From positions 558,001 through 622,000 of the forward strand of contig NZ_CP099993.1 of NCBI RefSeq assembly GCF_024138125.1: a DNA stretch of 64,000 nt. Direction: 5' to 3'. Below, piece by piece: positions 46,409-49,008 of this stretch (position 1 is the stretch's first letter; each line of letters starts with the position of its first letter). Below the pieces are notes generated by a model. That model saw only the letters and a program-made list of their open reading frames with translations, did not search any database and had not been told where the DNA came from. The stretch is from Halorussus salilacus. GTDB lineage: Archaea > Halobacteriota > Halobacteria > Halobacteriales > Haladaptataceae. A program made the translations under genes and the position numbers.

Positions 46409-46481
46409 GTGCGGGAGTTGGGCGGTTCGCAGGTAAGGCAATCGATTCGGTGGAGCCAGAAGCCGTCGATCCACCCGTCGT

Positions 46482-46775
46482 TTAGCCTCCATCTACTGGC
46501 GTGACGATTCCGTCGACCAGATCGACCGACAACCGTTCGTATCTCAGAACGTACTCTATCCGCCCTCGCTCGTCGTTGTACTCCTTGGAGACGAGTTGGG
46601 CGTCTACCAGATTCTCCAGTTCCCTGTAGATGGTTTCACGGTGTTTTCCCTCCTCGTGTTGCCGTTCGTACCGCTCGAAGGCTCCGACGGCGGAATCCGG
46701 GCTATCCGCGAGGAGTCGAACGATTTTGATTCGAGTCTCGCTCGATAGCGTCTGTCCGATTCGAGTGATTTCCAT
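46482..46775 (-). CDS. Small winged-helix transcriptional regulator
   Basis: A 97-residue winged-HTH protein starting MEITRIGQTLSSETR. The recognition region is about residues 35-65 (EEGKHRETIYRELENLVD), followed by a beta wing RGRIEYVLRYERL. ArsR/PadR-like size, with no metal-binding Cys. A palindromic operator and GTAAC half-sites lie directly upstream, divergent from an HNH endonuclease. It may control itself, the HNH gene, or the ABC exporter downstream. Confidence 0.8.
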   Translation of the reverse strand: MEITRIGQTLSSETRIKIVRLLADSPDSAVGAFERYERQHEEGKHRETIYRELENLVDAQLVSKEYNDERGRIEYVLRYERLSVDLVDGIVTPVDGG

Positions 46776-46783
46776 ACGACTGC

Positions 46784-46831
46784 GTAACGAAGTAACTCTA
46801 ATCACAGTTTGTTACGTATTCTTGTAACAAA
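46784..46831. promoter_or_regulatory. Candidate operator with four GTAAC/GTTAC half-sites
   Basis: Perfect 8-bp arms TTTGTTAC and GTAACAAA with 8 nt between them occupy 46808-46831. Two more GTAAC half-sites lie at 46784-46788 and 46792-46796. The block sits between the divergent HTH and HNH starts and overlaps their promoter zone. Confidence 0.6.
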
Positions 46832-46884
46832 ATAGCCGGATACACAACAAAATCGCATATGACCTCCACGTTATCGTGCGACCG

Positions 46885-47553
46885 ATGTCGGACGACTTCG
46901 CGGAGACGTACGAGGAGACGCTCCGCCGGGCGAATCGAATCGCCGAGGAACTGGAAGCGGTCGACCCGGAAGCGGTGTCCCGAGAGAACTGGGAGGAGGA
47001 ACTCCGCGACTACATGCTCGCTGTCGAGAACTTCGAAGACCACAAGACCGAGATTTACGCCTCGATTTTCGACGAAACGAGCGGAAAAGGGCGAATACGG
47101 GAGTATCTGAAGGACAAGGTCGGCGGCCCGGTCAGGTCCGAGACGCTCGCGCGCATCAGCGGTATCAGCCAGTACGCCCGTCGCGTCCGGGAACTCCGCA
47201 ACGAGGAGGGGTTCGTGATCGACAGCACCCGGACGCGAGCGGAGTTGGGACAGAACGACTACTTCGTGGTCGAGATTCGAGACGTGGACGAGAAACGCCG
47301 CATCTCCGCACAGACGCGCTACGAGCAGTTACAGCGCGAAGAGACGTGCCGAATCTGCGGTCGCGGCGTCGACCATCCCGACGTGAAGTACATGGAGGTA
47401 GACCACATCGAATCGTTCGTCGACTACGACGACCCGGAGGCCGTCAACGACCCGGAGAACCTGCGTACCCTCTGCAACGAGTGTCACCACGGGAAGAGCG
47501 CCGCCGACGACGTCGCCAACAGGCGGCGAGGTGGAGAGATACGCCGCGAGTGA
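46885..47553 (+). CDS. HNH endonuclease, probable restriction enzyme
   Basis: The protein has 222 residues. Residues 1-75 are helical and acidic. Residues 75-130 look like a winged-helix DNA-reading domain (ETLARISGISQYARRVRELR). Residues 150-205 form an HNH nuclease: zinc Cys155/158 and 197/200, VDHIESF with D173-H174, N192 in DPENLRTLC, and H202. It ends 3 bp from the convergent cytosine methyltransferase, so the pair looks like a type II restriction-modification module. The specificity is unknown. ATG at 46885 preferred over a GTG 9 bp earlier. Confidence 0.85.
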   Translation: MSDDFAETYEETLRRANRIAEELEAVDPEAVSRENWEEELRDYMLAVENFEDHKTEIYASIFDETSGKGRIREYLKDKVGGPVRSETLARISGISQYARRVRELRNEEGFVIDSTRTRAELGQNDYFVVEIRDVDEKRRISAQTRYEQLQREETCRICGRGVDHPDVKYMEVDHIESFVDYDDPEAVNDPENLRTLCNECHHGKSAADDVANRRRGGEIRRE

Positions 47554-47556
47554 GGA

Positions 47557-48711
47557 CTACGTCCCGAACGCCTGCAACTGGGACTGCTTCTCGCTCCCGA
47601 CTCGGAACGACTTCTCGAATATCTCGTGGTCGGTCTCGGCTTCGGGGTTCACGCTACTGGTCTCGCCTTCCAGATGCGATTTCATCGCCTGTCCGAGGTG
47701 ATACGAGAGTTTGGGCGGCACCGCGTTACCTATCTGAGGCGCGACCCGGGTTCGTGCGCCGTAGAACTCGAAGTCGTCGGGGAACGTCTGGAGTCGCGCC
47801 CCCTCGCGGATGGTGATCGAACGGTTCGCTTCGGGATGGAGATACCTGCCCTTCTCGGGCTTGTAGAACTCCGTCCGAATCGTCACCGACGGTCGGTCCC
47901 ACCACAGGCGACCGAACAGGTCGGTTCCGCCCTGCGTCTTGTTCTTCCAGCACTCGGGCATCAGCTCCTTGGGGAGGTCGTATCGGTTCCCGCCGGGCGG
48001 TACCTCCTCGAAGCGCTTCTTGCTCAACTCGGTCACCTGCTTTCGACTCACATGCCAGTTCTCCTCGGTCGGTTCGTTCGGCAAGTCTCCGATGGCGTCC
48101 GCGACGGTTCTTATCGGACCGTCCGTCTCCTCGGGGAGGAACGGAACGCCGAGCTTGCTTCCGAGGACGAACGCGCGCTTTCGCTTCTGGGGGACCCCGT
48201 ACTTGTGCGCCCACAGCGTGTCGACGACCGTCGTGTATCCCATCTCCTCCGCAATCTCCACCGTCCTGACGCCCTCCTGAGACTTGAGGAACCGCGGAAC
48301 GTTCTCGATGAGGAAGACGTCCGGGTCGATATCCTCGACGGCTCGGAGGAAGTGTCGCCAGAGCGAATTGCGCTCGTCGTCGAGTTCCGCCGTCTGGGTC
48401 TTGTTGAGATTCGAGAAGCCCTGACAGGGCGGTCCACCGACCACGACGTCGGCGTCGTCCCACGATTCGAACGAGTCTACGTCTCGGACGTCTCCCTCGA
48501 TCACCTCGGCGTCGAAGTTCCGGCGGAAGGTCTCGGCCGTGTTGTCGTCCTGCTCTATCGCCGCGATGGTCTCGAACGCGCGCTCGTCGAAGCCGATCTC
48601 CTCGTATCCCAGATCGGCGAGGCCGTTCAAGCGCTCGGGCATCTCGAACCCGAGCGAGAACCCACCCGCGCCGCTGAAGATATCGACGACCTTGTACGGC
48701 GGCTCCGCCAT
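47557..48711 (-). CDS. DNA (cytosine-5) methyltransferase
   Basis: A 384-residue C5-cytosine methyltransferase with the family motifs in order: I DIFSGAGGFSLGFE (10-23), IV GPPCQGFSN with nucleophile C96, VI ENVPR (136-140), VIII QKRKRAFVLG (175-184), IX RSITIREGARLQTFPDDF and X IGNAVPPKLSYHLG. The target-recognition region lies between VIII and IX. It modifies the recognition site and would protect against the neighbouring HNH enzyme. Codon use has more A/T than neighbours. A TATA-like TATAATA is about 30 bp upstream. Confidence 0.93.
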   Translation of the reverse strand: MAEPPYKVVDIFSGAGGFSLGFEMPERLNGLADLGYEEIGFDERAFETIAAIEQDDNTAETFRRNFDAEVIEGDVRDVDSFESWDDADVVVGGPPCQGFSNLNKTQTAELDDERNSLWRHFLRAVEDIDPDVFLIENVPRFLKSQEGVRTVEIAEEMGYTTVVDTLWAHKYGVPQKRKRAFVLGSKLGVPFLPEETDGPIRTVADAIGDLPNEPTEENWHVSRKQVTELSKKRFEEVPPGGNRYDLPKELMPECWKNKTQGGTDLFGRLWWDRPSVTIRTEFYKPEKGRYLHPEANRSITIREGARLQTFPDDFEFYGARTRVAPQIGNAVPPKLSYHLGQAMKSHLEGETSSVNPEAETDHEIFEKSFRVGSEKQSQLQAFGT

Positions 48712-48738
48712 ATCTATGGCTTCATTGTTGGATTCGTC

Positions 48739-48745
48739 TATTATA
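48739..48745 (-). promoter_or_regulatory. TATA box of the methyltransferase gene
   Basis: TATAATA on the minus strand lies 28-34 nt before the ATG at 48711; it is more AT-rich than most boxes here. Confidence 0.55.
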
Positions 48746-48768
48746 CCTTTGGATGGCGCGGCCGTTCT

Positions 48769-49008
48769 TCACCCGTCCATCAGTTCGTCCTTGCGGCGCT
48801 CGAACTCCTCGGTGTCGAGGAGGCCCCGCGAGTGAGCGTCACCGAGGCGTCCGAGTCGCTCCGCGACGGTCTGGGGTTCGCGCTCGGCCGCCGACGCACC
48901 GGGGCCGACGTCGGGCGTCTCCCGCTTGCGCCGGCAGGTCGCGTACTCGACCGCGCGCTCGACTTCCCTCGTCGCGTCGAAGTCGAGTTCGATCCGATGG
49001 CGGCGCAT
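48769..49008 (-). CDS. SHOCT-domain protein
   Basis: A 79-residue soluble protein with a basic, Cys-containing start and a C-terminal SHOCT helix pair (LGDAHSRGLLDTEEFERRKD, about 56-75). It sits 10 bp after the membrane gene on the same strand, so it probably forms part of the ctaB operon end. Its role is unknown. Confidence 0.65.
   Translation of the reverse strand: MRRHRIELDFDATREVERAVEYATCRRKRETPDVGPGASAAEREPQTVAERLGRLGDAHSRGLLDTEEFERRKDELMDG

Follow-up and report, generated by a model that had tools for sequence, protein, structure and literature searches.

A mobile Halorussus cassette with the features of a type II restriction-modification system: winged-helix HNH nuclease, candidate winged-helix controller and predicted target GCCGGC

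Results

Organization of the locus

The window, which is the whole 64,000-nucleotide stretch of the Halorussus salilacus genome (G000) that was analysed, contains a compact set of three genes encoding a winged-helix regulator, a nuclease with a winged helix and an HNH domain (wH-HNH) and a DNA (cytosine-5) methyltransferase (MTase; Table 1). The initial annotation had described the regulator and the HNH gene as diverging from a single palindromic operator, and the HNH gene as ending 3 bp from a convergent 5-methylcytosine (m5C) methyltransferase with intact motifs. Both descriptions were confirmed, the palindrome lying between the two divergent genes and the nuclease and MTase genes converging with 3 bp between them. 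The same annotation considered the codon use of the module to be more A/T-rich than that of the surrounding genes. This holds for the regulator, whose GC3 of 0.64 is extreme when set against the 0.898 +/- 0.055 of 51 window genes, just one of which has a lower value, whereas the HNH (0.82) and MTase (0.85) genes are only mildly low. As the foreign-codon argument is weak for these two genes, the proposal that the cassette was acquired rests on its presence and absence in related genomes and on its position.

Table 1 Features of the restriction-modification cassette in the window
Feature	Position	Strand	Basis or remark
Inserted cassette, delimited by comparison with the empty site of G147, the nearest non-carrier	46439..48773		blastn and alignment of the window with L154; ends accurate within ~10-20 bp
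Winged-helix regulator, 97 aa from ATG, proposed controller	46482..46775	-	Weak ArsR/HVO_A0261 profile matches; homologues in four other copies
Putative operator, inverted repeat TTTGTTAC-N8-GTAACAAA	46808..46831		Offset constant among the copies, with diverged sequence in G406; occurs once in the genome
Third half-site, degenerate, 15 bp past the palindrome on the nuclease side	46845..46853		Alignment of five intergenic regions
wH-HNH nuclease, 222 aa, proposed restriction endonuclease	46885..47553 (ATG), alternatively from GTG at 46876	+	Pfam, residues, model, PADLOC
DNA (cytosine-5) methyltransferase, 384 aa, proposed cognate methylase	47557..48711	-	Pfam and motifs; recognition region ~residues 205-290

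The nuclease and methyltransferase proteins

The nuclease consists of an N-terminal helical part (residues ~1-60), a winged helix (~64-131) and a Cys4 HNH domain (~145-210), the last of which is recognized by Pfam (HNH, E=2.8e-8) and contains the four zinc cysteines and the HNH residues. AlphaFold2 modelling from 15 sequences gave a confident winged helix (block pLDDT 84-90), which bears out the earlier view that the HNH protein carries a winged-helix domain of its own. The HNH part is poorly modelled, and a Foldseek search with this same model gave no match at E <= 0.001. The PADLOC type II model REase_II PDLC03478 matched all 15 aligned nucleases and PDLC03503 matched 13 of the 15 (best 3.1e-16), while a type IV model matched at most four. 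Within the winged-helix region (A1 profile positions 34-58) an R-x-RELRxEEG stretch showed a sub-threshold match, with E values of 0.09-0.2, to the C-terminal part of IscB in the PDB, a resemblance that is probably due to chance.

The MTase is a full C5 methylase (Pfam PF00145, E=5.6e-61) in which motifs I, IV, VI, VIII and X are present. The cassette genes are under purifying selection and their substitutions are mostly silent; comparison of the window with the G406 copy gave dN/dS values of 0.16 for the HNH gene, 0.09 for the MTase and 0.19 for the regulator, with synonymous sites near saturation.

Mobility, distribution and decay of the cassette

The nuclease and the regulator occur in the identical five of 28 family genomes and are absent from the rest, and the regulator was also absent from the other 390 genomes of the class that were sampled (391 in total). 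The genes that flank the window cassette are kept in all 28 family genomes. At the empty site of the nearest non-carrier, only 20 bp separate the region upstream of the ABC-ATPase gene from the end of the SHOCT gene, as against the full interval occupied by the cassette in the window. The G406 cassette lies on the opposite side of the SHOCT gene, those of H. aquaticus and H. ruber are found elsewhere in the genome and that of H. caseinilyticus resides on a plasmid. In a tree of the genus based on three proteins, some nodes of which are weakly supported, the carriers are dispersed. An 8-bp direct repeat across the cassette ends, CACCCGTC, was rejected as a target-site duplication because about one in five random pairs share at least 8 bp.

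The SHOCT-domain ORF that adjoins the cassette (window 48769-49008) is a remnant; the SHOCT gene of the relatives is ~500 bp longer, indicating that a deletion took place beside the insertion. In genome G024 the corresponding site, bounded by the ABC genes and the DUF gene, holds a long repeat-rich (PKD-like) surface-protein gene (L160:2055-4754), and the locus thus seems to accept inserts.

Decay is evident in two of the five haloarchaeal copies, and activity should not therefore be assumed everywhere; the copies of the window and of H. aquaticus are intact. The H. ruber copy (L096:6869-7502) has a frameshift near codon 45 of the nuclease and an intact MTase. The H. caseinilyticus plasmid copy (L080:7980-9752) has lost motif I of the MTase, two of the zinc cysteines of the nuclease and the nuclease stop codon.

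The nuclease is accompanied by a methyltransferase at all loci examined

When the nuclease was used to search some 85,000 genomes, two Halorussus species containing all three genes were identified, with nucleases 70% and 76% identical, together with 17 bacterial relatives displaying 30-43% identity; further copies are present on the H. caseinilyticus plasmid and in genome G406. Thus, the three-gene order, which the initial annotation had proposed to seek in other haloarchaea with presence and absence scored against nearest relatives, recurs in four more Halorussus genomes and has an empty site in the nearest non-carrier. A DNA MTase was adjacent to the nuclease gene at all 31 wH-HNH loci examined, in Halorussus, bacteria, plasmids, phages and viral contigs, with 30 of these enzymes being of the m5C type and one of the N4/N6 type. 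The HNH gene conserved without the methyltransferase, an arrangement which had been regarded as breaking the link, was thus never encountered at these loci. Across them, from haloarchaea to Proteobacteria and phages, MTase identity drops as low as 26%. At the bacterial, plasmid, phage and viral-contig loci the MTase is mostly located immediately upstream of the wH-HNH gene on the same strand. Of the properties by which a type II restriction-modification (RM) system is recognized, separate and adjacent MTase and nuclease genes that are conserved together were therefore found throughout, and intact MTase motifs and a nuclease related to type II enzymes were both present.

Several of these loci depart from the usual arrangement. 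On a Planctomycetota contig (L039:4493-5981) the wH-HNH gene overlaps an N4/N6 methyltransferase that replaces the m5C type, a natural swap of methylase class, indicating that the pairing with the nuclease persists even when the class of methylase changes. A Sphingomonas parapaucimobilis plasmid (L081:3449-5943) carries vsr together with a 319-aa nuclease, in which the winged helix is doubled and accompanied by HNH, and a convergent MTase whose recognition region is 65% identical to that of the window enzyme. In the Pandoraea plasmid pPO70-1 (L083:3095-4453) one 452-aa ORF comprises a Vsr repair nuclease, two winged-helix repeats and HNH, and lies beside a related m5C MTase.

HNH matches in 292 class genomes outside the carriers were not accepted as family members, as they represent relatives in the HNH domain only, several of them with zinc-finger parts; a C5 MTase within ~1.5 kb was found at none of 29 such HNH-only relatives in Halobacteria. 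A Paracoccus HNH RM system (PMC11473606) was likewise discounted as an example of the same architecture, its HNH gene being just 408 bp.

The predicted target is GCCGGC

Word counts were obtained from 100-184 kb samples of 17 Halorussus genomes, using 315 palindromic words, including degenerate ones, and carriers were compared with their sisters. The observed/expected ratio of GCCGGC was 0.01-0.10 in all five carriers. Ranked by the mean carrier-sister difference, this word was first of the 315 for depletion in carriers, and it was the sole word that was more than two-fold lower in four of the five carrier-sister pairs. The pair that breaks the pattern is the window's own genome and its sister G147, in which both members are depleted. 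Like G147, genomes G172 and G273 avoid GCCGGC and lack the cassette, so avoidance of the word may also have another cause. Plasmids differ in this respect: GCCGGC is depleted relative to the reversed word on the Sphingomonas plasmid (28 versus 179) and the H. caseinilyticus plasmid (3 versus 301), while the Pandoraea plasmid, which has a related pair, is not depleted (1199 versus 1014). GGCGCC, CTCGAG, CCWGG, GATC and CTAG are strongly depleted in many of the 17 sampled Halorussus genomes, with or without the cassette.

After the wH-HNH group, Rhodococcus antarcticus and Mycobacterium paragordonae are among the sources of the closest plasmid MTases, whose genes lie beside others annotated as an NgoMIV-family restriction enzyme and Vsr. 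NgoMIV cuts G|CCGGC (PMC4081073). The window MTase is 53-54% identical to these NgoMIV neighbours in the recognition region and 41% in the core, while MTases with unrelated partners display 36-39% identity in the recognition region. A negative control is provided by two genomes, from two other haloarchaeal families, whose MTases, 55-59% identical to the window enzyme, are altered in the recognition loop and paired with a helicase-nuclease; GCCGGC is not avoided in these genomes. Their A/T-rich two-gene cassettes (G330, L266:4424-8533; G178, L267:4812-8871) consist of the MTase gene and, convergent with it, a gene for a ~970-aa protein in which a UvrD-type helicase is joined to a PD-(D/E)XK nuclease. 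The different partner and the lack of GCCGGC avoidance led us to reject these as the same system; they look like another, perhaps undescribed, defence system that employs the same MTase lineage.

The winged helix of the nuclease resembles that of NaeI (PF09126) at a sub-threshold level in all four haloarchaeal proteins compared (E 0.031 to 0.00012; 13.9 to 21.9 bits versus a cut-off of 25), the match falling on one and the same stretch of NaeI. The profile had no match in the 391 class genomes, but nor had it any in the control genomes, which deprives this negative of weight. NaeI also tops the structural list produced by VIA-align (Z 6.8), although all the rows are winged helices with Z below 8 and many are tied, making this similarity a lead only. 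Bacterial relatives also retain this winged helix alongside MTases that differ greatly in the recognition region, and it need not therefore set the target. Taken together, depletion of the word in carriers and the kinship of the recognition region suggest that the target of the cassette is probably GCCGGC, and that the nuclease and MTase may be predicted to share this one site.

A candidate controller and its operator

The regulator shows weak Pfam and NCBIfam matches to winged helices of the ArsR/HVO_A0261 type, and no match to HTH_3 or a C-protein family was obtained from either database; it is thus not a classical C protein. Its structural model, HHH-EE(EE), is of low confidence (mean pLDDT 59). 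Homologues with 45-52% identity are present in the four other copies, one in each.

The operator palindrome lies 33-56 bp ahead of the regulator start and 54-77 bp ahead of that of the nuclease. The entire 3.6-Mb genome contains a single TGTTAC-N8-GTAACA and no match to the reversed control pattern. The intergenic region has the same order in all five copies: two half-sites inverted about an 8-bp spacer, followed 15 bp further on by an extra half-site. Three copies contain GTTAC-N8-GTAAC-N15-GTAAC, the window GTTAC-N8-GTAAC-N15-ACAAC, and G406 GTTGC-N8-GAAAC-N15-GCAAC, such that the third half-site, ACAAC in the window, is GTAAC or GCAAC elsewhere. The palindrome was not found upstream of the MTase in the three copies checked. 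The conserved geometry suggests that the regulator binds the palindrome, and that it is a probable dedicated controller of the RM cassette. It may regulate itself locally, restraining or postponing the nuclease without constraining the methylase; by analogy with ArsR-like proteins, repression rather than activation would be the simplest guess.

Discussion

The locus very probably represents a horizontally moving type II RM cassette, consisting of an MTase, a wH-HNH cutter and a regulator predicted to bind an operator, with GCCGGC as the most likely target. An acquired system of this type with a winged-helix rather than an HTH_3 controller is what the initial annotation had suggested, and the proposal gains support from the MTase linkage, the recurrence of the cassette, the empty site and the weak ArsR/HVO_A0261-type matches of the regulator, the role of controller resting on the conserved operator. 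The gene set, its order and linkage, its mobility, the purifying selection and the conservation and uniqueness of the operator are direct results of the computation. In the mechanism that we propose, the C5 methyltransferase would mark the host site, most likely GCCGGC, and the wH-HNH protein would cut the same site when unmethylated, the winged helix holding the DNA and the Cys4 HNH cleaving it. The regulator would bind GTTAC-N8-GTAAC and the extra half-site between its own gene and that of the nuclease, controlling both. The MTase, the upstream region of which is without the operator, would be made at once, and on entry into a new cell methylation would precede cutting.

The rival to be taken seriously is that of a stand-alone type IV nuclease directed against 6mA-methylated foreign DNA, for which the MTase would be no more than a neighbour. 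Indeed haloarchaeal 6mA-dependent type IV wH-HNH enzymes have been described (HhiV4I, SruGXI and HhaH883I), and these, which are known from Halorussus, have the same order of domains as the cassette nuclease and fall in the same size class (PMC11037411). Such enzymes, however, need no cognate MTase, yet a partner is present at every wH-HNH locus examined; the nucleases match the type II model rather than a type IV one, and HhiV4I, the prototype and the enzyme used for the comparison, aligns over only ~53 HNH columns. When used to search the family genomes HhiV4I matched other loci, none of them in the window's genome and never the cassette locus, making this explanation highly improbable. It is scarcely credible that the protein is a homing-type or mismatch-repair HNH nuclease travelling with an orphan methyltransferase. 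Although HNH domains are common among phage and homing nucleases, and the Sphingomonas and Pandoraea relatives adjoin, or are fused to, Vsr repair nucleases, an intron or intein context is absent, a separate Vsr is already there where repair is provided, and the pairing is kept even with an N4/N6 MTase, which is the source of no T:G mismatch problem.

The remaining alternatives accept the RM cassette and differ on its parts. Winged-helix regulators are common in haloarchaea and, in the window, the regulator adjoins an ABC transporter gene; it might thus be a passenger or regulate something else, such as this neighbouring transporter. This is improbable, however, as the regulator is found in exactly the genomes that carry the nuclease and, irrespective of the genes on either side, the two invariably diverge from the same operator. 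Rather unlikely, but with more to commend it, is the view that the cassette recognizes another target, either a non-palindromic word or one of those likewise depleted in carriers, such as GGCGCC, CTCGAG or CCWGG. GGCGCC and CTCGAG likewise fall below 0.2 in all carriers, and both the non-carriers that avoid GCCGGC and the Pandoraea plasmid that does not are consistent with such a view. It should be emphasized, however, that GCCGGC alone falls in four of five independent carrier-sister pairs, and that the recognition region of the MTase is common to the MTases of NgoMIV-type neighbours.

The proposed RM cassette shares features with several known systems. Similar to HNH-class type II RM systems (PADLOC PDLC03478/PDLC03503), it has separate nuclease and MTase genes side by side and a Cys4 HNH; it differs in the winged helix ahead of HNH, the haloarchaeal N-terminal helical extension and the divergent winged-helix regulator. 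Characterised HNH restriction enzymes include KpnI, Hpy99I and PacI (PMC4081073). The bacterial wH-HNH relatives mostly have MTase and nuclease in tandem (convergent in the Sphingomonas plasmid) and lack a winged-helix regulator. With the NgoMIV-type systems of Rhodococcus and Mycobacterium plasmids the cassette has in common the MTase lineage, a similar recognition region and probably the target; in these systems, however, the cutter is PD-(D/E)XK, is accompanied by Vsr and lacks a winged-helix regulator, while the cutter here is wH-HNH. The nuclease is thus not an NgoMIV family member, the MTase alone being related. Nor does it belong to the NaeI family (PF09126), since the match is confined to the winged helix and falls short of the cut-off, and the catalytic domain is HNH. 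NaeI (GCCGGC, type IIE) has a winged helix that is weakly similar in sequence and fold, and the same predicted target, but its PD-(D/E)XK domain precedes the winged helix, whereas here HNH follows it. The type IV wH-HNH enzymes (PMC11037411) share the two domains, a similar size and the same hosts; unlike HhiV4I, whose winged-helix sequence is unrelated, the cassette nuclease always occurs with a partner MTase.

C proteins constitute a separate HTH family, HTH_3. The candidate controller would resemble those of bacteria (PMC12707154) in being a small dedicated DNA-binding protein with an operator, here putative, at its own and the nuclease promoter, but C proteins are usually co-transcribed with the nuclease, while the ArsR-like winged helix is transcribed divergently. 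We slightly favour the view that this is a GCCGGC RM system in which a wH-HNH nuclease replaces the PD-(D/E)XK cutter of NaeI and NgoMIV, and to which is added an archaeal winged-helix controller that acts, through a composite GTTAC-N8-GTAAC operator, on the nuclease and not the MTase, as a separately evolved counterpart of bacterial C proteins. What is new here is that the data suggest a target, GCCGGC, for a wH-HNH RM cassette.

Currently the control of archaeal RM systems appears little described; a survey of archaea (PMC10609329) makes no mention of controllers, HNH or Halorussus. The compact mobile cassette brings together a testable candidate controller, an operator whose geometry is conserved and a concrete prediction of the target. 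Should this prediction be correct, a word known from PD-(D/E)XK enzymes would also be served by an HNH enzyme, and there would be a methylation motif to look for in Halorussus. In practical terms, plasmids intended for the transformation of carrier strains would be better without GCCGGC or pre-methylated. The cassette would also provide one reason for the near absence of GCCGGC from the genomes that carry it.
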